A program made the position numbers and the translations under genes. Positions 7,533-21,646 of a stretch of DNA of 21,646 bases are shown here, piece by piece (position 1 is the stretch's first letter; each line of letters opens with the position of its first letter). The notes under the pieces are model-generated. The model saw only the letters and a program-made list of their open reading frames with translations. It was not told the DNA's origin and searched no databases. Location of the stretch: NCBI GenBank assembly GCA_903834675.1, contig CAILKC010000572.1, positions 1-21,646 on the forward strand, read 5' to 3'. This stretch comes from an uncultured Victivallales bacterium (GTDB lineage: Bacteria; Verrucomicrobiota; Lentisphaeria; Oligosphaerales; JAFGRS01).

Positions 7533-7603
7533 ATGTGCCTTACTGTGAATCGGTAACAGGCAAGATAGTGCCTGCAGTCCCAGTCACAGGAAGGCATAGT
7601 AGT

Positions 7604-7909
7604 ATGAAGCTGCGGTCGATCCCTCCGAACACCCTCGCTGCCGTTGCGGCCCTGATTGGGCCGTACGCGCCGGACGCCTCGCCGTCCGCCATCATAGAGG
7701 CCCTGAAGGCGCACGGCGCCGACACCTCCGCCGACCCTACCGCCCGCAAGTGGCTCTCTTTCAGGGAGGCGGGCAAGGTGGTGGGCAAGAGCGAATGGTC
7801 CATGCGCCGGATGGCCATCGCGGGCTCGATTTCCGCCCGCAAGATAGGCGGAGTCTGGCGCATCCCTGTCAGCGCCCTCGATGCCCTGAGCCAGGCGGAC
7901 GCCGAGTAG
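7604..7909 (+). CDS. Excisionase / AlpA-like helix-turn-helix protein
   Basis: The start is taken at ATG 7604, nine bases after AGGAAGG; the open frame extends to 7535 but without a ribosome-binding site. The protein has 101 residues. The last 50 (KWLSFREAGKVVGKSEWSMRR, then ISARKIGGVWRIPVSALDAL) are a MerR/excisionase-type winged helix (HTH_17 style): a turn-helix that reads 'structure the row, choose the column', followed by the R-K-x-G-x-x-W-R-I-P wing. The first half is Pro/Ala-rich and helical. In mobile elements this type of protein acts as recombination directionality factor or as early activator. It sits after an intergenic dyad that may be its own operator. It also has an Ala/Asp-rich end 11 bases before the next ATG. 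Confidence 0.75.
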   Translation: MKLRSIPPNTLAAVAALIGPYAPDASPSAIIEALKAHGADTSADPTARKWLSFREAGKVVGKSEWSMRRMAIAGSISARKIGGVWRIPVSALDALSQADAE

Positions 7910-7919
7910 GGGGCCGACG

Positions 7920-8813: not shown

Positions 8814-10498
8814 GCAGCAGGACCTATGCAGACTACGGCATCGAGGTACCGGCGCATGGCGCAGGCGAGTGCCGCACGACCTGCCCCAAGTGCTCAGCCG
8901 GCAGAACCAAGTCGGGCGAGAAGTGTCTCGCCGTGAACCTCGACAAGCGGACGTGGTTCTGCCATCACTGCGGCGAGACAGGCGGGCTACCCGCAGAAAC
9001 GCACGCGGTGGATCCACACCGGCCCCGTGAACACGCAGCGAGTGTTGCCCAGGTCAAGCCCCGTCCCCTGTCCCAGGCAGCCCTGGCCTGGCTCGGGACG
9101 CGCGGCATATCGCAGGCGACTGCTGAGGCTGCTGGCGTTACCTCTGCCGACACCTACTTCCGGGACCTCGGCACGACTGAGGCGGTCGCGTTCGTGTACA
9201 CCAGCAACGGCGTTGCGGTCGGCGCCAAGTACCGCTCCGTCGCCGGCAAGGCCTTCAGCCAGAACCATGGCGGCTGCAAGAGTGCGTACCTGCACGACCT
9301 GGCCGCCGGGTGTGGCCAGGTCGTCATCACCGAAGGCGAGATCGACGCGCTCAGCGTCATGGAGTGCGACGTTCAGGGCGCCGTGAGCTGTCCTGAGGGC
9401 GCCCCGCCGGTCAACGCGAGAGCCGATGGGAAGCTGGAGTTCCTTGACGTCTCAGCCGACGTGTTCAAGGGCGCCGGCCGGATCATCCTCGCCATGGACA
9501 ACGACGAGCCGGGCATCCGCTGGCGTGACGCCATAGCCGAGCGCCTTGGGCCGGATCGCTGCTTCACTGTGGCCTGGCCGGCGGGATGCAAGGACGCGAA
9601 CGACGTCCTGGTCAAGCATGGCCGTGATGCCCTCCTCGCAGCCCTGCGCGATGCCAGGCCCTACCCTTGCCCCGGCCTGCACGAGCCCGACGAGTACGCC
9701 GCAGCTCTGCTGGCCCGACATGCCTCGCCGGCCAGGACGGGATACCCGACCGGATGGAAGAACCTGGATGCCTATCTGCGCATAGAGCCCGGCACCATGC
9801 ACATCGTGACCGGGATCCCCAGTTCCGGGAAGTCAGAATGGCTGGACGGGTTGGCGTTGAATACCGCCTCTCTGCATGGCTGGCGGTGGGCCATCTTCTC
9901 CCCCGAGAACTACCCGGTCGACCGGCACCTTGCCAAGCTCGTGGAGAAGCGCGTGGGCAGGCCATTCAGGGACATCCCTGCGAGCGAGGTGATGACCGCG
10001 TTGGCATGGGTACAGGAGCACTTCGTCTTCTTCAGCGAGGATGACCGGGGCATATCGGTTGAGCGGCTGGCCGGGCTGCTGAAGGCTGCCGTTGCCCGCT
10101 ATGGCATTCGCGGGGCCATCATCGACCCGTGGAACGAGATCGAGCACAGTCGTCCGCAGTACGTCAACGAGTCGGAGTACATAGGCTCGGCCCTGACGCT
10201 GCTGCGCAACCTCGCCAGGCGTGAAGGCTTCGCGCTGTTCATTGCGGCGCACCCGACGAAGATGGAACGCCAGGTCAGTGGCGACTACGGCGTCCCCACT
10301 CCCTACGACATCTCCGGCTCAGCCAACTGGCGCAACAAGGCCGACGTGTGCATCGCTGTGTGGCGGCCTTTGGCGAAGCCCGAACCGTGGGCGGATATCC
10401 ACATTCAGAAGGTCCGTTTCCGGGACGTGGGGCAGCTCGGCAAGTGCCGCCTGTACTGGCGCAAGGCGACAGGGTGTTTCGGCGACGCGGCGGAGTAG
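8810..10498 (+). CDS. Primase-helicase, T7 gp4/Twinkle-like (zinc finger, Toprim, RecA-like helicase)
   Basis: The start is ATG 8810, overlapping the previous stop; an upstream extension of the frame is not coding. The 562-residue protein has a zinc finger (CPKC 25-28 with CHHC 51-54), as in DNA primases, then a Toprim domain with VVITEGEIDAL (Glu175, Glu177, Asp179) and ILAMDNDEPG (Asp230, Asp232). The helicase half has Walker A GIPSSGKS (335-342), a Walker B-like stretch GAIIDPWNEIE and a sensor-like FIAAHPTK. The order and spacing match T7 gp4-type fused primase-helicases, which unwind and prime DNA during replication of phages and plasmids. The element can therefore probably replicate after excision. 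No DNA polymerase gene is present, so polymerase must come from the host or a helper. Confidence 0.87.
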   Translation: MSSRTYADYGIEVPAHGAGECRTTCPKCSAGRTKSGEKCLAVNLDKRTWFCHHCGETGGLPAETHAVDPHRPREHAASVAQVKPRPLSQAALAWLGTRGISQATAEAAGVTSADTYFRDLGTTEAVAFVYTSNGVAVGAKYRSVAGKAFSQNHGGCKSAYLHDLAAGCGQVVITEGEIDALSVMECDVQGAVSCPEGAPPVNARADGKLEFLDVSADVFKGAGRIILAMDNDEPGIRWRDAIAERLGPDRCFTVAWPAGCKDANDVLVKHGRDALLAALRDARPYPCPGLHEPDEYAAALLARHASPARTGYPTGWKNLDAYLRIEPGTMHIVTGIPSSGKSEWLDGLALNTASLHGWRWAIFSPENYPVDRHLAKLVEKRVGRPFRDIPASEVMTALAWVQEHFVFFSEDDRGISVERLAGLLKAAVARYGIRGAIIDPWNEIEHSRPQYVNESEYIGSALTLLRNLARREGFALFIAAHPTKMERQVSGDYGVPTPYDISGSANWRNKADVCIAVWRPLAKPEPWADIHIQKVRFRDVGQLGKCRLYWRKATGCFGDAAE

Positions 10499-10614
10499 GC
10501 AACATGGGGATCGACTACCTCGAAGGAAGGAGGGAAGGTGCATGATCATGTAGGCATCGGCATAGGATCGATACGGATCGGAACGTGAAACTGAGGCTAA
10601 CTGGAGGACTGAAC
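10499..10614 (+). other. Intergenic stretch with a possible 13-codon leader
   Basis: A short frame runs from ATG 10504 to TGA at 10543-10545 (MGIDYLEGRREGA), after GGAGTAGGC. At its end GGAAGGAGGGAAGG stands before ATGATCATGTAG, a three-codon frame behind a very strong ribosome-binding motif. Near-repeats of GGATCG(A/G) follow at 10565-10581. Either could be a leader that sets translation of the ParB-like gene, or chance. There is no stem with a T-run. Confidence 0.3.
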
Positions 10615-12063
10615 ATGAGTACGACGAACACCGCACCGGAAGCTGTGACCGCGGCAGCCAACACGGGCAGCGCCCTGCCGGCAGACAGGGCTGCAGGAGA
10701 TGAAGGGGCGTTCCCGAGTGCCCCCAGCGCTGACGCCGAGGCCCAGGCCCGCGAGCGCTTGCGCGAATGGGATGCCAAGCGACTGGTCGCGGCAGGCATC
10801 GCGCAGTACGAGGCCGGAGGGATCGCCGGCACGATCACCAGGTTCCTGGAGCCGAGCACGAACCCGCACCTTCGGCCCATCCTTGGAGAGACGGTACTCA
10901 GGGGCCTCCGTGCGCACGCACAACGGCCCGGCCTCGAGGATCTCATCGGCATCGTCAAGGCCATTCTGGGCGATGGCGACAAAGCGATGGAAGGCGCCCT
11001 CGCAGCGCCAGTCATGAAGCGGCCCCAGGGCCGGGGGCAGCAGAGCTCACACCCAGGGAGTGATGGCCACAGCGGCGCCCATACTACGTCGATCGAGCTG
11101 GACCAGATCATCTTCAACCCGCAACTGCAGCCACGCCAGAAGCAGGATGATGAGACTGTTCTGGAGTACGCCGACGCCATGGAAACCGGTGCTGAGTTCC
11201 CGCCGGTGATCGTCTTCCGCGACATTAACAGCGGAAGACTCGCCCTTGCCGATGGAGCCCACCGGGTGGCGGCGGCCCGTCGGGCCGGTTTCACCGCGAT
11301 CCGGGCTGAGGTGCGTAACGGGACGATGTGGGATGCGCTGCGCCATGCGCTGGGCTCGAACTCCGCTCACGGCCTGCGGCGCACCCGGGCCGACGTCGCC
11401 AAGGCCATCCGCTTGGCATACGACAACCGGTCGTTCCTCAGCCTGCCGGATGTCCCCAGCGCGCGGCTGATCGCTGATTTGGTGGGCTGCAGCGACAAGA
11501 CCGCGCAAGGTGAACTGCGGAGATTCCGCAGTTGGAAGACGGCGACGATCCGCACAGGCGCAGACGGGAAGGCGCGCTCCGTGCCGCAACCCAAGCCGAT
11601 CAAAGCCAAGGAGCCGCCGCCTGCTTCACAGGCACCACCGACCGAACCGGCTGCCCCGCCGCCATCCGCGCCGTCAGCAACTCCACAGCGCATTGCGCCG
11701 CAGGATCATAGGCAGCATGATGTACCTCCACCGCCCGACACCGCGGCGATCCCTGCGGCATCCGCCTCGGTGCTTCGCGTGCAGCAACCGGAACGCCAGA
11801 CCGCAAACCCAGGTGAGGATCTCTCGGGCGTGGTCCTCGGGACCCATGTCGATGAACGGGCCGGCCCTGACGGGGCGGACGATCCTGCTGCGGAGGACAT
11901 CCTGCGCCTGGTGGTGCAGGAGCTGGGCCGCGATGCGAGCGCTCCGGCGGGCAGGTGCGCCAGCGCCATCTGCGAGAAGATCCGCCTGTGCTATCCGGCC
12001 TTCTTCCGGCGCGCGCATGGCTTCTTCGCCCACGCGGCACTTCAGTTCAGTCCTGGTGTGTGA
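10615..12063 (+). CDS. ParB-domain protein with long Pro-rich tail
   Basis: The start is ATG 10615, eight bases after CTGGAGG; a GTG 30 bases upstream has no such site. The protein has 482 residues. Residues 1-155 are an Ala-rich, partly helical region that I do not recognise. Residues about 158-250 are a ParB/sulfiredoxin-fold nuclease-like domain (IELDQIIFNPQLQPRQ, then LADGAHRVAAARRAG at about 211-225, the ParB 'G-x-H-R-x-x-A' box). A helix-turn-helix follows (ADVAKAIRLAY, ARLIADLVGCSDKTAQGELR). A disordered Pro/Ala linker (about 325-400) leads to an acidic, helical end. ParB-domain proteins act in partition (CTP switch) or as DNA-modifying or regulatory proteins in mobile elements. No ParA gene is nearby, so a partition role is not proven. 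Confidence 0.78.
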   Translation: MSTTNTAPEAVTAAANTGSALPADRAAGDEGAFPSAPSADAEAQARERLREWDAKRLVAAGIAQYEAGGIAGTITRFLEPSTNPHLRPILGETVLRGLRAHAQRPGLEDLIGIVKAILGDGDKAMEGALAAPVMKRPQGRGQQSSHPGSDGHSGAHTTSIELDQIIFNPQLQPRQKQDDETVLEYADAMETGAEFPPVIVFRDINSGRLALADGAHRVAAARRAGFTAIRAEVRNGTMWDALRHALGSNSAHGLRRTRADVAKAIRLAYDNRSFLSLPDVPSARLIADLVGCSDKTAQGELRRFRSWKTATIRTGADGKARSVPQPKPIKAKEPPPASQAPPTEPAAPPPSAPSATPQRIAPQDHRQHDVPPPPDTAAIPAASASVLRVQQPERQTANPGEDLSGVVLGTHVDERAGPDGADDPAAEDILRLVVQELGRDASAPAGRCASAICEKIRLCYPAFFRRAHGFFAHAALQFSPGV

Positions 12064-12083
12064 CCGCTGATTTGCAGTCACGC

Positions 12084-12120
12084 AACAGCCCCCGGGGACC
12101 TCGACCGGGGGCTGTTCGTT
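12084..12120 (+). terminator. Rho-independent terminator after the mobile-element operon
   Basis: AACAGCCCCCGG (12084-12095) and CCGGGGGCTGTT (12105-12116) form a perfect 12-base stem with a nine-base loop, followed by a weak T-rich tail (CGTTTC). It lies 20 bases after the ParB-like gene stop and closes the + strand run that starts with the integrase. Confidence 0.8.
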
Positions 12121-12495
12121 TCTACACTGCCGCACGCCACGCCGCCCCCCTCCGCGGATGCGGGCCCGCACCGCCGGATCCCAAGGCTTCACCAGGGCGG
12201 CAGCCAGTCTCCCATGCCACGGCGGCCTCAGCTCTCTTGCGACCGTGCCCATTTCGGACTCCCGCATTCGGACTAATCGGGCGACACCGCATCCCATCCG
12301 GGGCCTGCCGCGGCCCTGCATCACCGCGCCGCGACCGCCACGCCGGCAGCCCGCGCCGGGTGGCGACCTGCGGCAACCGGGGGTTTTCCGACCATGGCGA
12401 CCGACCGGCGATCGGCGGCGACCGGCGGTCCTCCACGCATGGCGACCAACATCGCGTCGGGCCTCGATGCGGCGCCAACCAGGCACTAGGAGGCT
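12121..12495. other. Gene-free stretch with four GGCGACC motifs
   Basis: All frames here translate into Arg/Pro/Ala-rich sequence without ribosome-binding sites, so I see no gene. GGCGACC occurs at 12362, 12396, 12417 and 12441, the second and fourth copies within CATGGCGACC. Such short repeats downstream of a ParB-domain gene could be partition or iteron-like sites, but in DNA this GC-rich they may also be chance. Confidence 0.35.
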
Positions 12496-12600
12496 CCATT
12501 GGCAGTAGTCCGCCGGCCTTGACTACGCCTATGCTGCTGCCTTAAAGGCAGTAGGTCAGCGGCAGATCTACTGCCATTGGTGCCACTATTGGCGCCAATG
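12496..12600. repeat. Cluster of short direct and inverted repeats, possible origin or attachment region
   Basis: CCATTGGCAGTAG (12496-12508) is repeated inverted as CTACTGCCATTGG (12568-12580) with one mismatch. GGCAGTAG recurs directly at 12547-12554. GGCAGATCTACTGCC (12561-12575) is a near-palindrome with 5-base arms around ATCTA. ATTGGTGCCA (12576-12585) and ATTGGCGCCA (12588-12597) are near-direct repeats, the second inside the palindrome ATTGGCGCCAAT. This stretch is less GC-rich than its surroundings. The density of repeats beside a replication and integration module suggests an origin, a recombinase site or a right attachment site. No copy of any part was found near the integrase. Confidence 0.5.
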
Positions 12601-12955
12601 ACAGGCTCCTGGATGCCTGCCGAAGGCACCGGCTGACCACGGCGCCGGCAGGCGGATCAGGGGTGGGCCACGGGCTCGATATGCGCGCCCGGACCGTTCC
12701 TGATTCCGGCGGCCGGGTCGCGCGCGGGCCTGGTGCCCGGCGCGAAGGCCACGGCCTTGATTCGGGCGCCGAAGGCGGCGGTTCTCCTGACCGCCAGGCC
12801 CCCCTCTGCCGTGCCTGACGGCGAGACGAAAGTGGGCGTAACCGAGGGCTCTGGCAGCAGTCCGGTATCGATCTGGGGGTCTGCCGCATGGTTGGGGTCG
12901 CGTCGGGATCGCGTCCCGCCTGGACTCGCCGTTGCGTCGGCGGCGCTGTTAGCGT
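12601..12955. other. Gene-free stretch before the insertion sequence
   Basis: The sequence is GC-rich and translates into Ala/Arg/Pro/Gly-rich peptides on both strands. The longest + frame (from 12733) lacks a ribosome-binding site and family resemblance. I see no gene, RNA or strong hairpin here. Confidence 0.4.
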
Positions 12956-12965
12956 GTGGATAACC

Positions 12966-12984
12966 CCACGGCCTCTGGCCGTGG
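12966..12984. repeat. Left-end hairpin of the IS200-type element
   Basis: CCACGGCCTCTGGCCGTGG folds into a stem CCACGGCC/GGCCGTGG with a three-base loop. It is identical to the copy at 13623-13641. Confidence 0.8.
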
Positions 12985-13035
12985 ACCCTCAGAGGTTCGG
13001 ACCGGTGCTTGGTGGTTGAGGCGCAAGGGGAAAGG

Positions 13036-13086
13036 CATAGGTTCTTCCGTTGGTGAACCCCGCTGGTAACGGAGGAAGAACCTATG
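13036..13086 (+). promoter_or_regulatory. RNA hairpin over the transposase ribosome-binding site and start codon
   Basis: CATAGGTTCTTCCGTT (13036-13051) pairs with AACGGAGGAAGAACCTATG (13068-13086). The second arm holds the GGAGGAAG ribosome-binding site and the ATG itself, with one GGA unit bulged out. From IS200 work in Salmonella, such a leader stem-loop blocks translation and keeps transposition rare. The loop contains GGTGAACCCCGCTGG, which also has an inverted copy after the gene. Confidence 0.75.
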
Positions 13087-13515
13087 CACGAATGGCAAAG
13101 TCTATCCCATGTGAGGTGGGACTGCAAGTACCACGTGGTGTGGATCCCGAAGTACCGGCACAAGGTGCTGTACGGGAAGCTGCGGACGCACGTGGGCCGG
13201 CTGATCCGCGAACTGTGCCGGCAGCACGGAGTGGAACTGCTCGAAGGGCATGCGATGAGCGACCACGTGCACACGGTGCTGAGCATCCCGCCGAAGTTCA
13301 GCGTGGCGCGCGTCGTCGGGTTCGTGAAGGGCAAGAGCGCCGTGCGGATACACCGGGAGTTGCTGCACGAGCGGCGCATGACCGGGCTGCACTTCTGGGC
13401 TGCGGGGTACAGCGTGAGCACCGTAGGCATGGACGAGGAGGCGATACGCAAGTATGTCCGCGAGCAGGAGCAGGATGACCGGAACCTGGACCAGTTGGAG
13501 CTGGGCCTGAAATAG
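13084..13515 (+). CDS. tnpA: IS200-type Y1 (HUH) transposase TnpA
   Basis: The 143-residue protein has the usual length of this family. It is a single-strand DNA transposase with an HUH metal site and a single catalytic tyrosine. His61-Val62-His63 (SDHVHTVLSIPP) is the HUH motif, and Tyr124 with Gln128 (IRKYVREQEQ) is the nucleophile and the +4 Gln of the active-site helix. The N-terminal strand YHVVWIPKYRHKVLYG is also typical. The start ATG at 13084 follows GGAGGAAG. All key residues are present, so the element looks active or only recently inactive. It moves by peel-and-paste on single strands, usually at replication forks. Confidence 0.93.
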   Translation: MHEWQSLSHVRWDCKYHVVWIPKYRHKVLYGKLRTHVGRLIRELCRQHGVELLEGHAMSDHVHTVLSIPPKFSVARVVGFVKGKSAVRIHRELLHERRMTGLHFWAAGYSVSTVGMDEEAIRKYVREQEQDDRNLDQLELGLK

Positions 13516-13909: not shown

Positions 13910-15265
13910 TCACGCCTGGCTACGGGATGTTAGCGTCGGGATCGCCATGGCCTTGAGTTTGCGGTAGAGGGTACTTTCGTTTATGCCCAGTTCGCGGGCT
14001 GCGGCGCGACGGTTGCCGCCCTGGCGGCGCAGTGCATCCTCGATCAGAGCGGCCTCCATCTGCTGCAGCGACAGCACCTGCCGGAAGGGGCTCGCAATCC
14101 CCGCGTCCGGCAGGCGTAGTTCCGGCGGCAGATGGCGCATCTCGATCAGGCCGCCCGGGCAGAGCACGAAGGCGTGCTCGACGATGTTCTCCAGTTCACG
14201 GATATTGCCGGGAAAGTCGTACTGCAGCAGGCGCGCGCGCACCTCGTCGGTCACGCCGGCAAGGTCGCGTCCCTGCAGACGGTTTAGTTTGGACACGAAG
14301 TGGTCCACCAGCAGCGGGATGTCCTCCCGGCGGTCGCGCAGCGCCGGCAGGTCGATACGGATGACGTGGATGCGGTAGAAGAGGTCGTCGCGGAAGGCGC
14401 CCTTGCGCACCAGACGGGCCAAGTCCTTGTTGCTGGCCGCGATCACACGGACGTCGGCCGCCACACTCTCGACCGCGCCGAGGGGTTCGAAGCAGCGTTC
14501 CTGCAGCACGCGCAGCAGTCGCACCTGCATGGCGGGCGAGACGTCGCCGATCTCATCCAGGAAGAGCGTGCCGCCCTTGGCCAGGGCAAAGCGTCCCGGC
14601 TTGTCTTTACGGGCCCCAGTGAAAGCCCCGGCGCAGTAGCCGAACAACTCCGACTCGAGCAGCGTGTCCGGCAGCGCCCCGCAGTTGATGGCGACAAACG
14701 GCTTACGGGCGCGGTGGGACAGGTTGTGGATGGCCCGCGCCACCAGTTCCTTCCCGGTGCCGCTGGCTCCCTGCACCAGGACCGTGCTGTCACTCTCGGC
14801 GATCTGCGGCAGGATGCGGAAGACGTCCCGCATGGTGGCACTGCGCCCGACGATGTCCGCGAAGGTGTAACTCGCCTCCAGTTCCTTGCGCAGTTCCTCC
14901 ACCTGGGTCAGGTCCCGAAACGTCTCCACACCGCCGATGACCTTGCCCTTGGCGTCACGCAGAATGGCCGTCGAGATCCGGATCGGCACTCGCCGGCCGT
15001 CGGCGTCGACGACGTAGACCGGTAGGTTCACCGCAGGATGGCCCGTGGCCAAGGTCGAACGCAGGGCGCAGGCTGTCTCGCAGATGCTGGCCCGCAGCAC
15101 CTCGCAGCAGGGCCTGCCGAGGGCCTCATCACGCCGCACCCCGACGATCCGCTCGGCCGCCCGGTTGAAGGACGTGATCCTCCACTCCAGATCGACCGTG
15201 AAGACACCCTCGTTGATGGAGTCGAGGATCACCTGTCGGTGGTCGCTGTCGTCGGTGCGGGCCAT
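13910..15265 (-). CDS. Sigma-54-dependent activator with Cys-containing PAS sensor (PAS-AAA+-Fis)
   Basis: The 451-residue bacterial enhancer-binding protein has three parts. A PAS domain (about 9-120) reads ILDSINEGVFTVDLEWRITS and FNRAAERIVG, with four Cys (53, 54, 62, 66) in CCEVLRASICETAC. An AAA+ domain (about 135-370) has Walker A GASGTGKE (166-173), the sigma-54 contact loop GAFTGA (213-218) and Walker B LFLDEIGD (234-241). A Fis-type helix-turn-helix stands at the end (NRRAAARELGINESTLYRKL). The Cys set suggests redox, metal or Fe-S sensing. There is no receiver domain, so it is a one-component sensor. It is divergent from the NifX/MinD cluster, whose first gene has a -24/-12 promoter, so it almost certainly controls that cluster, as DVU2106 does for the orp operons of Desulfovibrio vulgaris. 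Confidence 0.92.
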   Translation of the reverse strand: MARTDDSDHRQVILDSINEGVFTVDLEWRITSFNRAAERIVGVRRDEALGRPCCEVLRASICETACALRSTLATGHPAVNLPVYVVDADGRRVPIRISTAILRDAKGKVIGGVETFRDLTQVEELRKELEASYTFADIVGRSATMRDVFRILPQIAESDSTVLVQGASGTGKELVARAIHNLSHRARKPFVAINCGALPDTLLESELFGYCAGAFTGARKDKPGRFALAKGGTLFLDEIGDVSPAMQVRLLRVLQERCFEPLGAVESVAADVRVIAASNKDLARLVRKGAFRDDLFYRIHVIRIDLPALRDRREDIPLLVDHFVSKLNRLQGRDLAGVTDEVRARLLQYDFPGNIRELENIVEHAFVLCPGGLIEMRHLPPELRLPDAGIASPFRQVLSLQQMEAALIEDALRRQGGNRRAAARELGINESTLYRKLKAMAIPTLTSRSQA

Positions 15266-15323
15266 GTGCCTGATCCTGCCTGCAGACGGTTAGCCGAGAA
15301 CTTGCAGTCTGCCATATAACAAA

Positions 15324-15352
15324 GCATGTGATCATGCATAATGCAAGACATG
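15324..15352. promoter_or_regulatory. Palindromes in the divergent intergenic region, candidate activator site
   Basis: GCATG-TGAT-CATGC (15324-15337) and the overlapping TGCAT-A-ATGCA (15335-15345) lie about 100 bases before the -24/-12 promoter, with another CATGC at 15349-15353. This is the usual distance for an enhancer site of a sigma-54 activator. The region is AT-rich compared with its surroundings. The dyads are seen; the assignment is inferred. Confidence 0.5.
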
Positions 15353-15437
15353 CGGGAATCGGCAGAAGTCCATGTGTTGAGCCGGTAGTAACTGTTTTAC
15401 AGCATATTAAGATCAATCCGTTGGGCTTATAGAGGGA

Positions 15438-15453
15438 TTGGCCTTGTACCTGC
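15438..15453 (+). promoter_or_regulatory. Sigma-54 (-24/-12) promoter of the NifX/MinD cluster
   Basis: TTGGCCTTGTACCTGC has the invariant GG and GC with the required 10 bases between them, against the consensus TTGGCAC-N5-TTGC. GC at 15452-15453 predicts transcription start near 15465, only about four bases before the ATG at 15469. No Shine-Dalgarno motif precedes that ATG, so the first message may be leaderless. Confidence 0.75.
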
Positions 15454-15468
15454 TTATATCCTCCTGTA

Positions 15469-16335
15469 ATGCGAATCGCTATCGCCAACTGGAATGATCG
15501 GGTGTCGCCGGTGCTGGACTCGGCCGCGAGCCTGACGTTGATCGAGCGTAGTGCTACGGGTGAGACCGGCCGGCAGGTGGTTCGCCTGGACGGCACAGGG
15601 GTGTGGAGCCAGGCCCGCCAGATCGGTGCGCTCGGTCTCGATGTGCTTATCTGCGGCGCCGTATCGAAACCGCTGTATGAGCTGCTGGCGGCCGACGGCT
15701 TCGAGATCGTGGCGTTTGTGGCGGGAGAGGTGGAGCACGTCCTGGCGGAGTTCCTCCGCGGCGAGTTGCCTGAGCGTGCACTCGCTCTGCCCGGGTGCCG
15801 CTGCCGTTGGCGCGGCAAGACAGGTCGCGGCCCACAGGCCAGTGGACGGCACGGGCGCAGGAGTTCGCCAGCGCGAACCGTATCTGCAAAGATGGCCGCG
15901 TCGACACCGGCGGCAGCCAGGAACGACACGCTCACGCCGCCGGAACCGGTACACGCAAAGCAAGGAGATCCCATCATGGTCGTCGTGAGTGCCCGCGGTG
16001 AATCTGTAGACGCGGCGGTCGACAGCCGTTTCGGGCGGGCGGCGTTCTTCCTCGCCGTGGACGTGCAGAGCGGTGCGGCCCGCGCCTACAGCAACACGCC
16101 GAACCTGGAGGCCGCGCAGGGCGCGGGCATCCAGGCGGCGGAGACCGTCGCTCGCCTGGAGCCCGAGGCGGTGTTGACCGGCAACGTCGGTCCCAAGGCG
16201 TTCCGGGTCCTGCAGGCGGCGGGCATTCGTGTCTACCGCTGTGAGCAGGGCACGGTGGCGGAGGCGGTAGCCCGTTTCCGCGCCGGTGACCTCGTGGAAC
16301 TGTCCGGTGCCACGGTCGAAGGACATGCAATCTGA
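15469..16335 (+). CDS. Double NifX/ORP-like protein (two dinitrogenase Fe-Mo cofactor-type domains), possible two-gene fusion
   Basis: The frame has 288 residues. Residues 1-110 (MRIAIANWNDRVSPVLDSA to EFLRGELPERALALPGC) are a NifX/NifB-C fold domain of the ORP/DVU2107 type, whose relatives often end with a PGC and an Arg/Gly-rich tail. Residues 110-169 are a low-complexity linker (GRGPQASGRHGRR, TPAAARND). Residues 170-288 are a second, full-length NifX domain (DSRFGRAAFFLAVD, SNTPNLEAAQGAGIQAAE, VLTGNVGPKAFRVLQAAGI). A good ribosome-binding site, AAGGAG (15962-15967), stands nine bases before Met170 (ATG 15976), so the second domain may also be made alone. Such proteins bind Mo, Cu or Fe-S clusters. 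The start at 15469 fits the family N-terminus but has no ribosome-binding site. Confidence 0.82.
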   Translation: MRIAIANWNDRVSPVLDSAASLTLIERSATGETGRQVVRLDGTGVWSQARQIGALGLDVLICGAVSKPLYELLAADGFEIVAFVAGEVEHVLAEFLRGELPERALALPGCRCRWRGKTGRGPQASGRHGRRSSPARTVSAKMAASTPAAARNDTLTPPEPVHAKQGDPIMVVVSARGESVDAAVDSRFGRAAFFLAVDVQSGAARAYSNTPNLEAAQGAGIQAAETVARLEPEAVLTGNVGPKAFRVLQAAGIRVYRCEQGTVAEAVARFRAGDLVELSGATVEGHAI

Positions 16336-16358
16336 ACGCAAACCAGGAGACAACGAAC

Positions 16359-16556
16359 ATGCCACAAGGTGATGGAACGGGGCCCAAGGGCCAGGGATCA
16401 GGGAGCGGACGCGGTCGCGGTCCTTGCGGCGGCGGGCAGCGCAAGGGGCCGGCGGCAGGAGCCGGAAAAGGACAAGGCGGGAAGGGAAACGGTGCGGGCC
16501 GTGGTGGTCGAGGCAAGGGCCGCGGTCAGGGGCGTGGCCCGGCAAAGAGTGGTTGA
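16359..16556 (+). CDS. Small Gly/Arg/Lys-rich MPxGDGTGP protein (DUF5320-like) 1
   Basis: This 65-residue protein starts with MPQGDGTGPKGQG, the signature of DUF5320-like proteins found beside NifX and MinD genes in anaerobes. The rest is Gly, Arg and Lys (GRGRGPCGGGQ, then Gly-Lys and Gly-Arg repeats) with one Cys and no hydrophobic core, so it is probably disordered and basic. The start follows CAGGAGACAACGAAC. It is the first of three tandem relatives that share the N-terminal motif. Its role is unknown; a metal or partner-protein tether is a guess. Confidence 0.75.
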   Translation: MPQGDGTGPKGQGSGSGRGRGPCGGGQRKGPAAGAGKGQGGKGNGAGRGGRGKGRGQGRGPAKSG

Positions 16557-16590
16557 GTCCGAACCGCAACTGGAAAAAGGGGAAACGATC

Positions 16591-16839
16591 ATGCCACTAG
16601 GTGATGGAACCGGGCCTGCCGGGGCTGGGCCCGGCAGCGGGCGTGGCGGCAAGGGCCGCGGTGGTGGCGGCATGGGCCGTGGCGGTGGCGGGCGGGGCCG
16701 CATGGGCGGGCCCCAGGCCGCCGGGCCTGCTGGCCAGTGCGTCTGCCCCAAATGCGGCTTCAAGACGGCGCACACGGCAGGACAGCCCTGCACTGACCAG
16801 ACCTGCCCCAAGTGCGGCACCGCCATGGCGCGCGAGTAG
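16591..16839 (+). CDS. Gly-rich MPxGDGTGP protein 2 with zinc ribbon
   Basis: The start is ATG 16591 after AAAAAGGGGAAACG; the frame is open further upstream, but that part is antisense-like filler over gene 1. The 82-residue protein begins MPLGDGTGPAGAGPGSGRG, runs through Gly/Arg/Met repeats, and ends in a compact zinc-ribbon motif, CVCPKCG near residue 50 and CPKCGTAMARE at the end, with CTDQ between. The four-Cys ribbon could bind zinc or iron. It is the second of three tandem relatives and the only one with a ribbon. Confidence 0.8.
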   Translation: MPLGDGTGPAGAGPGSGRGGKGRGGGGMGRGGGGRGRMGGPQAAGPAGQCVCPKCGFKTAHTAGQPCTDQTCPKCGTAMARE

Positions 16840-16869
16840 GTACCACAACCACAACGGAGGAACCAGATC

Positions 16870-17259
16870 ATGCCAGCGGGAGACGGAACGGGGCCCCGGG
16901 GAATGGGGCAGATGAGCGGACGAGCAGCCGGGTTCTGCGCGGGGTTCGGCCTGCCGGGGTACGAGAACCCGATGCCCGGACGCGGTGTCGGCGCGGGCTG
17001 CGGGCGCGGCGGCGGCTTCGCTGGCCGTGGCGGGCGCGGCGGCGGTGGTGGCAGAGGCTGGCGCAACGTGTTCCACGCCACCGGGCTGCCGGGCTGGGCG
17101 CGCGCGGGGCTGCCGGTTGGCTGTGTGCCGTACAGTGCCGCCCGTGGACCAGAGCAGGAGCTCGCCGTGCTCAAGCAGCAGGCTGACCGCCTTGACAGCG
17201 TCCGTGAGAGCATCCGCCAGCGCCTGCAGGAACTCGAGGCGAAACCCGCGGAGAAGTGA
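16870..17259 (+). CDS. Gly-rich MPxGDGTGP protein 3 with coiled-coil end (DUF5320-like)
   Basis: The 129-residue protein follows GGAGGAACCAGATC. It starts MPAGDGTGPRGMGQMSGRAAGFCAG, the fullest version of the family signature (GDGTGP-x-G-x-G-x-x-S/TGR-x-x-G-x-C). A Gly/Arg stretch follows, then GWRNVFHATGLPGWAR, and a heptad-like C-terminal helix (EQELAVLKQQADRLDSVRES to QRLQELEAK) that can form a coiled coil. The helix suggests oligomers or binding to a partner such as the MinD ATPases. Function is unknown. Its stop is 44 bases before the radical SAM gene. Confidence 0.8.
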   Translation: MPAGDGTGPRGMGQMSGRAAGFCAGFGLPGYENPMPGRGVGAGCGRGGGFAGRGGRGGGGGRGWRNVFHATGLPGWARAGLPVGCVPYSAARGPEQELAVLKQQADRLDSVRESIRQRLQELEAKPAEK

Positions 17260-17303
17260 CGCCGCTGGAGTAACGCGGCGGTGGGGACGGGGAGCGCTCT
17301 GGA

Positions 17304-18302
17304 GTGCCCCCCGTACTTGCTTTCATGACTATGAGCCCTGGCACCCATCACTATCAGTACCTCTTCGGCCCAGTCCCCTCGCGGCGGCTGGGCTGGTCGT
17401 TGGGCGTAGACCTGACGCCGCCGAAGACCTGCAGCCTGGACTGCGTGTTCTGCCAACTCGGCCGAACCACCGTCAAGACGACGGCGCGGCGCGAATACGT
17501 TCCCGTGGCGGGCGTGGTGGCGGAGATCGCAGACTGGCTGCAGGGGGGCGGCACCGCCGACTACATCACCCTGGCCGGCTCGGGCGAGCCGACGCTGCAC
17601 AGCCGCTTCGGCGAGATCATCGAGCAGACTCGGCGGCTGACGACCATTCCTGTCGCCCTGCTGACCAACGGTACGCTCCTGCATCTGCCGGAGGTCCGCC
17701 AGGCTGCCTGCATGGCCGCGGTTGTGAAGGTCACGCTCGCGGCGGCCGATGAGACGTTGTTCGCGCGGATCCACCGGCCGTGCGAGGGCGTCACCCTCGC
17801 GCAAGTGCTCGAGGGTCAGCGCCAATTGCGGGCCGAGTTCACGGGCGGGTTGTGGCTGGAAGTGTTTCTGCTCTGGGGTGTCAACTCGACTCCGGCGGAT
17901 GTACGGCGCCTGGCGGCACTGGCGCGGGAGATCAGGCCGGACCGCGTACACCTGAACACCTGTGTCAGACCACCGGCGGAGGCGTCTGCCGAGGCGGTGC
18001 CGCTCGAACGCCTGGCGGAACTGGCGGCGTTGTTCGAGCCGCGGGCCGAGGTAGTCGCGGAGTTCAGCGCCGCTCTGTCGGCGCATACCCAAGTAACCGA
18101 GGATGCGGTCCTGGCGCTGCTGCGGCGTCGTCCCTGTACCGCACACCAGGTGGCCCAGGCGTTCGGCCTGCACGCCAACGAGGTCTCGAAGTACCTCGGC
18201 AAGCTGGTGCGCACGCACCGGGCTAGCGTCGAACGCCGCCACGGTGAAGCCTACTACGTCGGCGCTGGGCCGCAGGCCGCGGAGGGCGACCCCCATGCTT
18301 GA
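17304..18302 (+). CDS. Radical SAM protein (COG0731-like) with C-terminal winged helix
   Basis: The protein opens YLFGPVPSRRLGWSLGVDL, the hallmark of COG0731-type radical SAM proteins, and has the cluster motif CSLDCVFC (Cys43, 47, 50; CX3CX2C) that binds the SAM-cleaving 4Fe-4S cluster. GSGEPTLH is the SAM-binding glycine motif, and LLTNGTLL and the later barrel strands follow. The last 60 residues (AVLALLRRRPCTAHQVAQAF, KYLGKLVRTH) look like a winged helix. Substrate is unknown; some annotations call this family wybutosine-type, but the context here is metal-cofactor assembly. The start is uncertain: GTG 17304 follows GGGGAG at good distance, while ATG 17325 or 17331 are nearer the conserved region. 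The 3' end overlaps the next gene by eight bases. Confidence 0.85.
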   Translation: MPPVLAFMTMSPGTHHYQYLFGPVPSRRLGWSLGVDLTPPKTCSLDCVFCQLGRTTVKTTARREYVPVAGVVAEIADWLQGGGTADYITLAGSGEPTLHSRFGEIIEQTRRLTTIPVALLTNGTLLHLPEVRQAACMAAVVKVTLAAADETLFARIHRPCEGVTLAQVLEGQRQLRAEFTGGLWLEVFLLWGVNSTPADVRRLAALAREIRPDRVHLNTCVRPPAEASAEAVPLERLAELAALFEPRAEVVAEFSAALSAHTQVTEDAVLALLRRRPCTAHQVAQAFGLHANEVSKYLGKLVRTHRASVERRHGEAYYVGAGPQAAEGDPHA

Positions 18303-18900
18303 TGCGTCGCACTCGGCTCGTCTGAAGGGCATGCAGCACGAGTACCACCCGCGCTGCGCGATCTGTGCCCCGCAGAACCCGGCGGGGTTCGGGCTGGACT
18401 TCCGGCTGCTGGACGGCCACGCGGTGGAAGCGTCCTTCTCGTGTGACGAGCGCTTCCAAGGCTACCGGAACTGGCTCCATGGCGGCGCCATCGCCGCCAT
18501 CCTTGACGGTGCCATGACCAACTGCCTGTTCGCCCGCGGTTTGGTTGCGGTCACGGCAGACCTCAGGGTGCGGTTCCGGCAGCCGTTGCCGACGGGTTCT
18601 GAAGCCACCGTGCGCGCCTGGGTGGAGCGTTCCCTCGGTCCCCTCCACACGTTGGCGGCTGAGATCGTGCAGGGCGGCAGGGTTGCGGCATCCGCGTCGG
18701 GCACCTTCATGGAGTACAGCCCGCAACGCCTGGGCACTCCGGCCCGTGAACCAGGAAACCTGGACCCGGTAGCGATGTCGATGAGACCGCACCTGGTTCC
18801 CACACCTGCCACCGGCGCTGGCCCAGCGCCGGGTCCCGGCGGCGACGTGACAGGCCATGGGTGCAGGCAGGCACCGATGGCAAGGAGGGAGACGCCATGA
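18295..18900 (+). CDS. Hotdog-fold thioesterase-like protein with long tail
   Basis: The start is ATG 18295, overlapping the radical SAM stop by eight bases. Residues about 15-145 are a PaaI/hotdog domain: CAICAPQNPAGFGLDF (Cys21, Cys24), HGGAIAAILDGAM (His62, Asp71; the usual active-site helix), and DLRVRFRQPLPTGSEATV. From family knowledge such proteins cleave or bind acyl-CoA or acyl-thioesters; the CxxC-NP-x-G start occurs in this subgroup. The last 55 residues (from QRLGTPAREP) are Pro/Gly-rich and look like translated intergenic DNA. They include a 17-base GC palindrome (18814-18830). The stop overlaps the next ATG (ATGA). Why a hotdog protein sits in a metal-cluster operon is not clear. 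Confidence 0.8.
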   Translation: MLDASHSARLKGMQHEYHPRCAICAPQNPAGFGLDFRLLDGHAVEASFSCDERFQGYRNWLHGGAIAAILDGAMTNCLFARGLVAVTADLRVRFRQPLPTGSEATVRAWVERSLGPLHTLAAEIVQGGRVAASASGTFMEYSPQRLGTPAREPGNLDPVAMSMRPHLVPTPATGAGPAPGPGGDVTGHGCRQAPMARRETP

Positions 18901-19289
18901 CACAGGCAACGGAACAGACGCATGGATCAGCGGCCCGAGATCCACTCTTTGGCTGGCTCGACCATCCCACTGCAAATGCTGCGCTCATCGGGCTGTGCGG
19001 CGACAAGGTGGAGTTCTACCTGGCCATCCGCGATGGGGTGATTGCGGACGTGCGCTACTACTCGGAAGGCTGCGACCACCTCCGGTCCCGCGCCGCGGCC
19101 GTGGCGCGCCGCGCCAAAGGCAAGGCCATTCTCGACGCGCTGGCCATCAGCCCGCGCGCGATCATCGACGCCGACGAGTGCCTGCCCGAAAAGGGCTGGC
19201 ACTGCGCCATCCTGGCGGTGAGTACGCTGCATCGGGCCATCGCGAGTTACCTACTGGATCGGCAAGCGCTCCAGGAACGGCAGAGTTGA
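18897..19289 (+). CDS. NifU-like (IscU-fold) scaffold protein 1, second Cys replaced
   Basis: The 130-residue protein starts at ATG 18897 after AAGGAGGGAGACGCC, overlapping the previous stop. It matches the NifU N-terminal fold: EFYLAIRDGVIADVRYYSEGC, then ARRAKGKAILDALAIS and HCAILAVSTLHRAIASYL. Cys59 (EGC) and Cys103 (HCA) align with ligands, but the Cys expected seven residues after the Gly of EGC is Arg65 (CDHLRSRAAA instead of CGNTRACGGA in the sister gene). Cys34 and Cys95 remain. This scaffold may therefore hold a different cluster, or act only as a partner for the other copy. It is a tandem paralogue of the next gene and shares long exact DNA stretches with it. Confidence 0.82.
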   Translation: MTQATEQTHGSAARDPLFGWLDHPTANAALIGLCGDKVEFYLAIRDGVIADVRYYSEGCDHLRSRAAAVARRAKGKAILDALAISPRAIIDADECLPEKGWHCAILAVSTLHRAIASYLLDRQALQERQS

Positions 19290-19291
19290 CG

Positions 19292-19810
19292 ATGAACAGC
19301 ACGACTTCCGTCACGACGCGTTTGCTGGCAGCGTTCTGCCGGGTATGCCCGCTGTGCGTTGGCGCACGGTGGTGGCCGCTGAGTCGGTTCGCGAAAGCGA
19401 CGAAGGGGATTGAGAGAGCCTGTCCTGCCTGTAAGGCCTATGCACAGATGAAGGACGCGACGCCCATGGAGAGTTCGCCAAACGATGAGTTCTTTGGGCG
19501 GATGAACGATCCGACCGCGTCGGCCTCCATCAAGGGGCCGTGCGGGGACCAGATGGAGTTCTACCTCGTCATCCGGGATGACGTCATCGAGGATGTGCGC
19601 TACTACACCGAGGGATGCGGTAACACCCGTGCTTGCGGTGGCGCCGTGGCGCGCCGGGCCAAGGGCAGAAACGTCACGGACGCGCTGTCCATCAGTGCCG
19701 GCGAGGTCATCCGCTCCGGCGAGTGCGAACCGGCAGCCCACCGTCATTGCGCCATCCTGGCGGTGAGTACGCTGTACCGGGCCATCGCGGACTATCTCTT
19801 GGCCCCGTGA
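19292..19810 (+). CDS. NifU-like scaffold protein 2 with N-terminal Cys-rich extension
   Basis: The frame starts at ATG 19292, two bases after the previous stop, and has 172 residues. Residues 1-57 form a Cys-rich extension (FCRVCPLCVGARWWP with Cys16, 19, 22; SRFAKATKGIERACPACKAY with Cys44, 47), similar to small 'FCRAY'-type proteins found near such clusters. Residues about 60-172 are a NifU-like fold with all ligand positions: EGCGNTRACGG (Cys109, Cys115) and HCAILAVSTLYRAIADYL (Cys153). An internal ATG at 19468 could start the NifU part alone (weak GAAGGA upstream), so this may be a fusion of two small genes. In the cell it would build or carry an Fe-S cluster for the ATPases that follow. 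Confidence 0.78.
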   Translation: MNSTTSVTTRLLAAFCRVCPLCVGARWWPLSRFAKATKGIERACPACKAYAQMKDATPMESSPNDEFFGRMNDPTASASIKGPCGDQMEFYLVIRDDVIEDVRYYTEGCGNTRACGGAVARRAKGRNVTDALSISAGEVIRSGECEPAAHRHCAILAVSTLYRAIADYLLAP

Positions 19811-19830
19811 CCACCCGAGGGGTATGCACG

Positions 19831-20697
19831 TTGCAGATAAGAATCGCCATCGCCAGCGGAAAGGGGGGGACGGGGAAGACGACGGTTGCCGTCAACCTCG
19901 CCTGGGTCCTTGCCGAGCGCGGCCTGACCGTCCAGTACCTCGACTGCGACGTCGAGGAGCCGAACGGCCATATCTTCCTCAGACCCCAGATCACCGCGAC
20001 CGAGTCGGTGGGGATTCCCGTGCCGGTGGTCGATGAGGGGAAGTGTACCGCCTGCCGCACGTGTGCCGAGGTCTGTCAGTATCACGCTATCGCGGTATTG
20101 AAGAAGCCGCTGGTTTTTCCCGAGCTCTGCCACGGCTGCGGCGGCTGCCTGCTGGCCTGCCCGGCAGGGGCCATCCGAGAGGAGTTGCGGACCATCGGGG
20201 GGGTCGAGACCGGTTCCGCTGGCCGGATCGGCTTCGGGCAAGGGCGTCTCAACGTCGGTGAAGCCATGTCGCCGCCGCTGATCCGCGCCGTGAAACGGCA
20301 GGCGCGAACGGCTGGGGTCGTGCTGCTGGACGCGCCGCCCGGCACCGCCTGCCCGGTCGTGGCGACGGTGCGCGGCGCTGACTATGTACTCCTGGTGACC
20401 GAACCGACGCCGTTCGGGCTGAATGACTTGCAGTTGGCGGTGCAGACGGTGCGACAGCTTGAGGTGCCCTGCGGTGTCCTCGTCAACCGGGCCGGTGCGG
20501 GTGACGGGCGTGTTCGCGCCTACTGCCAAACCGAGAGGATCGCCCTGTTGGGTGAACTCCCCGACGAGCGGCGCGCAGCAGAGGCCTATTCCCGCGGTCT
20601 GTTGCTGGTCCAGGCACTGCCCGAGTGGCGCGGCCGGTTTGAAGCGCTGGGTGATGCCGTGCTCCGTCACGGACAAGAGGCTGCCCTGAAACAATGA
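19831..20697 (+). CDS. MinD/Mrp-type ATPase with ferredoxin insert 1
   Basis: The start is taken at TTG 19831, after CGAGGGG; it gives MQIRIAIASGKGGTGKTT, the normal N-terminus. GTG 19807 (GTGA overlap) is an alternative. The 288-residue protein has the deviant Walker A SGKGGTGKTT (9-18), then DCDVEEPN, and a two-cluster ferredoxin insert with Cys72-75-78-82 and Cys100-103-106-110. After it come LLDAPPGTACPV and LLVTEPTPFGLNDL, the Walker B and switch regions of the MinD family. Relatives stand in pairs in ORP clusters (DVU2103/DVU2104 type) and are thought to load or move Fe-S or Mo/Cu clusters with ATP. The stop overlaps the next ATG (ATGA). Confidence 0.9.
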   Translation: MQIRIAIASGKGGTGKTTVAVNLAWVLAERGLTVQYLDCDVEEPNGHIFLRPQITATESVGIPVPVVDEGKCTACRTCAEVCQYHAIAVLKKPLVFPELCHGCGGCLLACPAGAIREELRTIGGVETGSAGRIGFGQGRLNVGEAMSPPLIRAVKRQARTAGVVLLDAPPGTACPVVATVRGADYVLLVTEPTPFGLNDLQLAVQTVRQLEVPCGVLVNRAGAGDGRVRAYCQTERIALLGELPDERRAAEAYSRGLLLVQALPEWRGRFEALGDAVLRHGQEAALKQ

Positions 20698-21611
20698 ACG
20701 AACTTGTGGTCATCAGTGGCAAAGGCGGCACGGGCAAGACCAGCATTCTGGCGTCGTTTGCCGCGCTGGCTGGGCACGCGGTCCTGGCCGATGGCGATGT
20801 CGATGCCGCGGATCTGCATCTGCTTTTGGCGCCCACGGTCCAGCGTCGCGAGGAGTTTCGCTGCGGTCGTGCGGCGGTCATCCGGCAGACCGACTGTATC
20901 GGCTGCGGTGCCTGCCTGGCGCGCTGCCGCTTCGAGGCCGTGCGGATGGGCAAAGGAGGGGTGGGTGAGGGTAGGTTCACCATTGACCCGACAGCCTGCG
21001 AAGGCTGCGGCGTCTGTGTGAAGGCCTGCCCGGTCGAGGCCATCGACTTCCCCGAGAGGGTCAGCGGCGAGTGGTACGTCTCGGACACGCGCTTCGGGCC
21101 CCTGGTGCACGCCCGACTGAATCCTGGCGGCGAGAACTCCGGCAAGCTGGTCAGCCAGGTCCGTACGGTGGCCCGTGATCTGGCTGCAGAGCGTGGTGCG
21201 GACACCGTGTTGGTCGACGGACCGCCGGGCGTGGGTTGCCCGGTGATCGCAGCCATCAGCGGCGCCGCACAGGTGCTGGTGGTGACCGAACCGACCCTCT
21301 CGGGCCTCCACGATCTGCAGCGCGTCCTGGAGTTGACCCGCCATTTCGGCATCCAGGCCGCCGTTTGTGTGAACAAGTGGGACCTGAACCCGGAGTTGAC
21401 GGAGCAGATCGAGTCCGTCGCCCGGGCGGCGGCCGCGGTCGTTACCGGCAGGGTACGCTATGATCGGGTGGTCACCCAGGCACAGGTCGCCGGGCGCACC
21501 GTCATCGAGATGGGCGCCTCCGCCGTTGGCGACGATATCCGTGATGTATGGAGTGCCCTGCTGTTTGCGCGAGATGCTTCACTCACGGGCACGGGAGGCA
21601 ACCATGGCTGA
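20694..21611 (+). CDS. MinD/Mrp-type ATPase with ferredoxin insert 2
   Basis: This 305-residue paralogue of the previous gene starts at an overlapping ATG. It reads MNELVVISGKGGTGKTSILA, ADGDVDAADLHLLL, then two 4Fe-4S sets, Cys68-71-74-78 (CIGCGACLARC) and Cys102-105-108-112 (CEGCGVCVKAC). VLVDGPPGVGCPV and LVVTEPTLSGLHDL are the Walker B and switch regions, and VNKWDLNP the base-recognition motif. It probably forms a heterodimer with the first ATPase, as the two usually occur together. The end is Gly/Ser/Thr-rich, and its stop lies inside the next gene. Confidence 0.9.
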   Translation: MNELVVISGKGGTGKTSILASFAALAGHAVLADGDVDAADLHLLLAPTVQRREEFRCGRAAVIRQTDCIGCGACLARCRFEAVRMGKGGVGEGRFTIDPTACEGCGVCVKACPVEAIDFPERVSGEWYVSDTRFGPLVHARLNPGGENSGKLVSQVRTVARDLAAERGADTVLVDGPPGVGCPVIAAISGAAQVLVVTEPTLSGLHDLQRVLELTRHFGIQAAVCVNKWDLNPELTEQIESVARAAAAVVTGRVRYDRVVTQAQVAGRTVIEMGASAVGDDIRDVWSALLFARDASLTGTGGNHG

Positions 21612-21646
21612 GCACACCACTATCCGGGTTATCGTGCTGGCCGACA
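21604..21646 (+). CDS. Start of a further cluster gene, truncated by the window
   Basis: ATG 21604 overlaps the stop of the second ATPase by eight bases and gives MAEHTTIRVIVLAD before the window ends. GGGAGGCAACC stands in front as a ribosome-binding site. Fourteen residues are too few for a family; a strand followed by 'VLAD' would suit an MBL-fold hydrolase, which often stands next to such ATPase pairs, or another NifX-type protein. Confidence 0.55.
   Translation, partial: MAEHTTIRVIVLAD

Follow-up and report, generated by a model that had tools for sequence, protein, structure and literature searches.

The DNA analysed here (the window) is a stretch of 21,646 nucleotides (nt) from an uncultured Victivallales bacterium, which carries at 13910–21611 an operon built around a tandem NifX-domain protein. 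We read this locus as an expanded version of the orange protein (ORP)/MrpORP-type operon in an anaerobe of the Planctomycetes–Verrucomicrobia–Chlamydiae (PVC) group, and consider it probable (roughly 0.6) that the system assembles, carries and buffers metal-sulfide clusters. The reading is carried by the gene content, by an ORP fold recognised both by profile and by model, by the promoter sequence and the ligand residues, by recurrence of the enlarged operon in several bacterial phyla, and by the linkage, and in one type the fusion, of small glycine-rich "GDGTGP" proteins (family DUF5320) to the NifX domain. All biochemical steps, the identity of the cargo metal and of the signal, and the anaerobic nature of the host are our inferences. 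The core corresponds to the known ORP operon. What appears to be new is the recurrence of the enlarged set, the tandem form of NifX, and the linkage of DUF5320 to the cluster and of one GDGTGP type to NifX by fusion; listings of open-licence papers gave no description of any of these, nor of a function of DUF5320.

Gene content and control of the operon

A gene for a sigma-54 enhancer-binding activator (13910..15265, reverse strand) is divergent from one tight run of forward-strand genes extending from the NifX gene through the second ferredoxin-MinD gene, in which intergenic distances range from -8 to +44 nt (overlaps of at most 8 nt, spacings of at most 44 nt). Reading of the open reading frames (ORFs) together with Pfam and NCBIfam scans of the window ORFs located every gene named in an earlier sequence-only reading of this DNA, in the arrangement which that reading described. 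It had the genes right and overlooked the tandem nature of the NifX gene and the linkage of the GDGTGP proteins, which form a more tightly linked part of the operon than the radical S-adenosylmethionine (SAM) protein does.

The first gene of the run (15469..16335, forward strand) encodes a tandem fusion with two Nitro_FeMo-Co (PF02579) stretches, NifX-A and NifX-B, separated by a cationic linker. NifX-B matches the D. gigas ORP (2wfb) by profile with an E-value of 3e-43, and its model superimposes on 2wfb with a template modelling (TM) score of 0.92 (by 2wfb length), a root-mean-square deviation of 1.0 Å and 42% identity; by profile and predicted fold, NifX-B is the ORP domain. The model of the whole protein has a predicted TM score of 0.46, at which the mutual placing of the two domains is not predicted. 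Across 43 NifX homologues, NifX-A has invariant Cys62, Pro108 and Gly109 and a nearly invariant Cys110, residues 108–110 forming a PGC motif. The linker that follows reaches approximately residue 165, is modelled with low confidence, and has an isoelectric point (pI) of at least 9 in 40 of the 43 homologues; in the window its pI is 11.7 and it contains two cysteines. An in-frame AAGGAG (15962–15967) and ATG (15976) inside the gene could start NifX-B separately. A single ORF scoring above 270 bits, and hence tandem-like, is found in six of the 80 related loci described below, and in many others the two domains occupy separate ORFs.

At the far end of the run are two ferredoxin-MinD ATPases of the Orp3/Orp4 type, identified by Pfam (ATPase 1, 19807..20697, with a GTG start at 19807 or a TTG start at 19832; ATPase 2, 20694..21611; both forward strand). 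Each contains two [4Fe-4S] ferredoxin motifs, as Orp3 and Orp4 do, and the eight ferredoxin cysteines and the PPGxxCP cysteine are kept in 114/114 aligned rows for ATPase 1 and, at the same positions, in 112/112 for ATPase 2. A further gene (21605..21646, forward strand; start MAEHTTIRVIVLAD) is cut by the window end. At this position the nearest relative of the locus, L001, has a metallo-beta-lactamase (MBL)-fold gene with a similar start (MAERVNVRVTVLAD), on which the MBL-fold assignment of the window gene is based. Next in L001, two genes after MinD2, comes the carrier ATPase MrpORP (Orp9; NCBIfam NF041136), scoring 539 bits where the cut-off is 450. By analogy with L001, an MBL-fold gene and then MrpORP, whose position would lie beyond the window end, probably continue the operon.

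The middle of the run adds four further proteins besides the GDGTGP set. Two are NifU_N-like scaffolds by Pfam (scaffold 1, 18897..19289, with the ligand motifs CGD, GC and HC recognised by eye; scaffold 2, 19292..19810; both forward strand), and in 28 aligned rows of scaffold 2 and its relatives the Cys/Asp/Cys/Cys ligands are retained. Scaffold 2 also bears an N-terminal Cys-rich extension (19292–19455), which looks like a small fused protein because in two other genomes (G004 and G012) the corresponding piece lies apart from the NifU part, either elsewhere or in another frame. The third is a hotdog (4HBT) thioesterase-like protein by Pfam (18295..18900, forward strand). The fourth is the radical SAM protein (17304..18302, forward strand), in which Pfam, alignment and modelling together indicate one CX3CX2C cluster site and a C-terminal winged-helix-like part, and which carries no fused NifX domain by Pfam. 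In 20 aligned homologues, chosen from 120 listed, C43, C47 and C50 alone are invariant, and C278, which lies in the helical C-terminal part, is conserved in 90% or more.

Upstream of the NifX gene, the element TGGCCTTGTACCTGCT (15439..15454, forward strand) has exactly the spacing of the -24/-12 sigma-54 consensus. It starts 30 nt upstream of the NifX ATG and ends 14 nt short of it, a distance at which the transcript leader would be very short. When the upstream 300 bp were shuffled 200 times by mononucleotide, 4% of the shuffles reached the score of TGGCCTTGTACCTGCT, and on window evidence alone the case for a promoter is modest. L001 has an element in the same place, at 31 nt, with different inner bases, and of 36 NifX starts (window included; the set was found by pattern and some starts may be missing) 24 have an element whose shuffle fraction does not exceed 0.05 and 12 have none. 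Approximately 90–130 nt further upstream, the block CCATATAAC..GCATGTGATCATGCATAATGCAAGA (15312..15348, no strand) is largely kept between the window and L001 and may bind the activator. Of the 36 upstream regions, 10 contain the heptamer ATAATGC, 10 TAATGCA and 11 AATGCAA, where mononucleotide shuffles predict 1.1–1.2 for each. A search for perfect palindromes (arm of at least 6 bp, gap of at most 8) as activator sites gave none in the upstream 300 bp of either the window or L001, leaving the conserved block and the enriched heptamers as candidates. The activator itself combines PAS, Sigma54_activat and HTH_8 (Fis-type helix-turn-helix) domains by Pfam, with the GAFTGA motif in its AAA+ part. 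Its PAS cysteines 53, 62 and 66 (C-x8-C-x3-C) are identical in 44/44 aligned rows, window included, and make this domain a candidate cluster or redox sensor.

These features support the proposed kinship with the orp operons of D. vulgaris Hildenborough (DVU2103–DVU2109), with which the locus shares the ORP-type NifX domain (Orp8), the two ferredoxin-MinD ATPases, the sigma-54 activator with a -24/-12 promoter (both recognised here by sequence) and, in L001, the adjoining MrpORP. The window differs in having a single main operon where D. vulgaris has a divergent pair, a tandem NifX protein and a regulator divergent from the whole set, and it adds three GDGTGP proteins, two NifU-like scaffolds, the radical SAM protein and the hotdog protein.

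Recurrence across genomes

A profile built from the 43 NifX homologues was searched against one-per-species genomes and the best 80 of a larger number of loci were kept, from which the neighbour profiles were also grown; at least two genomes (G003 and isolate AUK119) supply two loci each. The titles of these loci name Victivallales, Kiritimatiellae, Verrucomicrobia, many Planctomycetes, Zixibacteria, Desulfobacteraceae, Spirochaetes, Riflebacteria, Nitrospiraceae and others, and Lentisphaerae bins supply the best of the named homologues for both the radical SAM protein and the GDGTGP proteins. Counting matches above 60 bits, the NifX domain is found in all 80 loci, the MinD1-type ATPase in 63, the MinD2-type in 56, DUF5320 in 48, and the activator and a single NifX protein in 45 each. 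MrpORP (38), an MBL-fold protein (37), an ARMT1-like protein (35) and a zinc-ribbon GDGTGP protein (23) follow, and the NifU-like (20), hotdog (18), radical SAM (15), TrmO (10) and AhpC (9) genes are rarer. The ARMT1-like (DUF89) phosphatase is thus a frequent member of the cluster (for example at L037:6378-7316) that the window does not have. The recurrent TrmO gene encodes a tRNA methyltransferase O domain (for example at L078:12903-13628).

The sequence-only reading had held that the radical SAM, hotdog and NifU-like genes would be chance neighbours if they accompanied the NifX/ATPase set in no other genome. They do accompany it, in 15, 18 and 20 of the 80 loci, respectively. In the 49 genomes behind 50 of these loci (237 Mb), radical SAM matches number 45, hotdog matches 32 and NifU-like matches 47, two of the last covering the N-terminal extension only. 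At this density approximately 0.2 of each would be expected by chance over the 1.15 Mb that the 80 loci span, the genome-wide and 80-locus counts having used different score limits. We therefore reject chance co-location of the three genes. With the anchoring reversed, a core cluster gene (above 60 bits; TrmO and AhpC excluded) lies within about 1.5 kb of 24/30 hotdog, 22/30 NifU and 19/30 radical SAM loci, in genomes that had been selected for having the cluster, and all 24 hotdog matches with an E-value of 1.1e-27 or less are near a core gene.

In an unselected sample of 145 genomes from one phylum the radical SAM gene is present in 65, among them 16 of the 20 genomes with MinD2 (p = 7e-4), and 5 of 30 radical SAM loci in this sample lie near a core cluster gene (3 of 28 new loci, plus L081 and L085). 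Four more matches share a contig with a MinD or DUF5320 match that is about 4 kb away or less (G081:C40, G104:C10, G154:C11 and G154:C169). On a tree of 52 radical SAM proteins the cluster-linked forms are clumped, requiring 5 changes against 17 in shuffles, where the way in which a locus was fetched affects its cluster-linked label, and host kinship adds to the clumping. The radical SAM protein is an accessory of the cluster that is more often solitary, and together with the hotdog protein it forms an optional part of the operon.

The GDGTGP proteins

Immediately downstream of the NifX gene are three small related proteins which share a start of the form MPxGDGTGPxGxGPxTGRG. GDGTGP protein 1 (16359..16556, forward strand) has 65 residues, 45% Gly, 20% Arg/Lys and a pI of 12; protein 2 (16591..16839, forward strand) has 82 residues, a pI of 9.6 and a C-terminal six-Cys zinc ribbon; protein 3 (16870..17259, forward strand) has 129 residues, 25% Gly, a pI of 10.2 and a C-terminus that by eye looks like a coiled coil. 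Proteins 1 and 3 pass the 27-bit gathering cut-off of DUF5320 (PF17253), at 29.2 and 67.2 bits, and protein 2 gives no DUF5320 match. For one member of the family 2173 homologues were found.

The family is closely tied to the MinD2 ATPase. In the 145-genome sample all 16 genomes with an over-cut-off DUF5320 match have MinD2, which is present in 20 genomes (hypergeometric 6e-18), and all 20 over-cut-off matches lie near a cluster gene, one of them via the radical SAM gene alone. A sample of 118 genomes from a second phylum gives MinD2 in 64 of 69 DUF5320 genomes, out of 73 with MinD2 in total (hypergeometric 3e-17), and at the best 30 DUF5320 loci of this phylum a cluster gene is near in 29 and a NifX-domain neighbour (above 30 bits) in 27.

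One type is physically joined to NifX. Four of 120 NifX homologues (P0222, P0207, P0224 and P0232; E-values 5.6e-26 to 1.7e-20) consist of NifX-A, a cationic linker and a zinc-ribbon GDGTGP-like tail in a single chain, and so end in a Gly-rich zinc-ribbon tail. Such fusion was seen for the zinc-ribbon type only; profiles of the other two types (DUFa and DUFb) found no convincing NifX fusion (best E-values 0.28 and 0.013).

We collected 90 GDGTGP-type ORFs from the loci and the window. Downstream of the motif, median Gly is 33, 30 and 26% and median Arg+Lys 13, 11 and 12% in types a, b and zinc-ribbon, respectively, with Asp+Glu at approximately 1.4–1.5% and aromatic residues at 3.6, 12.9 and 1.6%, one ORF being able to count in more than one type. 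GC bias was rejected as the source of the glycine in type b, which is uncorrelated with locus GC (rho 0.00, n = 56); Arg/Lys in this type rises weakly with locus GC (rho 0.31, p = 0.02).

Small Cys-containing proteins also occur beside the MinD genes of Salidesulfovibrio, where the first ORF of the MinD operon encodes a 93-residue, Arg/Gly/Cys-rich protein and overlaps MinD1 by 26 nt. This ORF lies at the position expected for DVU2105 (the small Fe-S protein Orp5) from the D. vulgaris operon DVU2105–DVU2103 (excerpts of PMC4641369); passages of PMC6345978 describe a homology of Orp5 to a protein that binds a [2Fe-2S] cluster. Another small Cys protein, with a CGGC domain, is encoded after MinD2, and an ARMT1-like gene (L250:8663-9604) is divergent from the MinD operon. 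Glycine-rich, cationic, Cys-bearing tails were also seen in two other small ORFs, one HTH-like (L026:9623-9994) and one after MinD2 (L008:7369-7695). A scan of the loci for Gly/Arg/Cys-rich ORFs returned five rows, several of them doubtful, and by its overlap rule skipped the Salidesulfovibrio ORF; we draw no statistic from it.

Proposed function and genomic surroundings

In the sequence of events that we propose, the PAS activator with its three invariant cysteines would sense redox or Fe-S/metal state and drive the operon from the sigma-54 promoter. The NifU-like scaffolds would then make [2Fe-2S]/[4Fe-4S] units, which the two ferredoxin-MinD ATPases and MrpORP would move with ATP, and the tandem NifX/ORP protein would hold a metal-sulfide cluster non-covalently. 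The three cationic Gly/Arg-rich GDGTGP proteins may bind anionic metal sulfide away from the folded site, in the manner proposed for the tail of IssA with thioferrate, so that linker and GDGTGP proteins together would provide a buffering step after making, moving and holding. The transfer step has a precedent in MrpORP, which passages of PMC6345978 describe as binding Fe-S and transferring it to an Orp3–Orp4–Orp8 complex, with a [3Fe-4S] cluster on its NifX domain; the Mo-Cu sulfide cluster of ORP is likewise taken from the published work.

IssA of Pyrococcus furiosus is the second point of comparison. Excerpts of PMC5524996, a 2017 report, present it as the first biological store of thioferrate and propose its cationic Gly/aromatic tail as the binder. 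IssA is a NifX-superfamily domain with a cationic, Cys-bearing tail, to which the linker of the window protein may correspond, its pI being of like kind, and the GDGTGP proteins have the same kind of Gly and charge content, with a comparable aromatic content in the type of protein 3. The window differs in that a linker, followed by a second NifX domain, and separate proteins stand in the place of the tail. By this analogy we tentatively suggest, while thinking it rather unlikely, that the DUF5320 proteins are IssA tails acting in trans, which with the tandem NifX protein and its linker would seed and enclose polymers of anionic metal sulfide (thioferrate, or clusters bridged by thiomolybdate) as a storage particle or condensate. 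Such a store, in anaerobes of several phyla, would be regulated, with dedicated NifU scaffolds loading it and the ferredoxin-MinD ATPases and MrpORP unloading it. If true, DUF5320, to which no function has so far been assigned, would become a metal-sulfide-binding family.

Several observations weigh against the assembly, carriage and buffering of metal-sulfide clusters, or against its buffering step in particular. The likeness to IssA is one of composition only, and the IssA tails act in cis; the window linker has only 10% Gly; and the NifX domain of MrpORP is without the cationic tail of IssA and is different from it (passages of PMC6345978). The linkage has exceptions, with DUF5320 missing in 4 of the 20 MinD2 genomes of the first phylum, and, in the second, 5 genomes with DUF5320 and no MinD2 and 9 with the reverse. 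Neither the radical SAM protein (E-value of 1e-20 or less) nor the hotdog protein (1e-10 or less) was matched anywhere in the metagenome bin of L001, many of the 80 loci come from metagenome bins and are truncated at contig ends, so that the counts are too low, and no cysteine desulfurase was seen in the visible part of the operon. A Gly/Arg-rich sequence is also compatible with RNA binding or protein scaffolding, and the ORP complex of D. vulgaris has been given a putative role in cell division (excerpts of PMC3897727, PMC4641369 and PMC6345978).

The sequence-only reading had suggested that, with the added scaffolds and the radical SAM enzyme, the system may build a metal cofactor that is different or larger; this would make the operon a dedicated cofactor factory with a NifB-like logic. 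NifB-type maturases are radical SAM proteins with auxiliary cluster ligands and in many cases also a NifX domain, and the window does share the NifX fold, NifU-like scaffolds and a radical SAM protein with the NifB/NifX/NafY system. The scaffolds keep all their ligands, radical SAM genes lie near the cluster in 15 of the 80 loci and clump on the tree, and NifB is among the Foldseek matches of the radical SAM model. These matches, however, are some among many radical SAM folds, TYW1 included, on a modest model (mean predicted local distance difference test score 74.8, below 50 in the cluster loop). With three invariant cysteines and one near-invariant, the protein has no NifB-like set of auxiliary ligands, and we rejected a NifB-like identity on cysteine content; the fused NifX domain is absent as well, and the gene is unmatched in the L001 bin and common in cluster-free genomes (65 of 145 genomes carry it). 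We regard a cofactor factory as very unlikely, and this part of the earlier proposal is not supported. A mixed neighbourhood, with a real ORP core and the radical SAM, hotdog and NifU-like genes as unrelated passengers, would account for each gene being in a minority of loci (15–20 of 80), for L001 being without the first two and for most radical SAM loci in the unselected sample being solitary. Against roughly 0.2 loci expected for each, and with the majority of reverse-anchored loci near a core gene (24/30, 22/30 and 19/30), it is highly improbable, the claim of pure chance having already failed.

The putative septum-positioning role would make the operon a cell-division device in which metal clusters serve only as a redox switch. 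It is in keeping with the MinD-type ATPases and with the polar location of MrpORP (passages of PMC6345978), but the neighbours (NifU scaffolds, MrpORP, GDGTGP proteins, ARMT1-like protein, MBL-fold protein and peroxiredoxin) point to cluster chemistry, and neither MinC nor MinE is among ten further annotated ORF families, no search having been aimed at them; we consider it improbable. Closer to our preferred reading, with which it overlaps such that our confidence figures are not exclusive, is the view that the GDGTGP proteins are disordered RNA- or protein-binding scaffolds in an ordinary Fe-S delivery system. The Gly/Arg-rich composition, the zinc ribbon of protein 2 and the coiled-coil-like C-terminus of protein 3 (by eye) are consistent with this, whereas the close linkage to NifX genes and the joining of the zinc-ribbon type to a NifX domain in one chain argue against it, and we find it doubtful.

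For the ORP complex, whose cluster is unusual, a function has yet to be settled. That its genes are part of a larger, recurrent set which brings its own scaffolds and cationic Gly-rich partners makes metal-sulfide assembly and storage a likelier function than cell division. DUF5320 gains a first testable role, with candidate proteins for co-expression, and ORP is tied to IssA in such a way that the same experiment could address both questions.

Among the window ORFs scanned by Pfam no nitrogenase was seen, Rfam and tRNA scans gave no matches, and a check for plasmid location found no match to the NifX protein in a plasmid collection. Beside the operon, 5274–13515 resembles a mobile element, with a tyrosine integrase, a primase/helicase (Toprim + DnaB), a ParB-like protein and an IS200-type transposase. 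In L001 a U32-peptidase-like ORF (by eye) adjoins the activator at the corresponding place, and given this arrangement the mobile-element-like stretch may have been inserted at the window site. Further away, 311–5211 contains two large ORFs, one with a match to glycosyl hydrolase GHL6 below the Pfam cut-off and the other with a DUF5060 domain.

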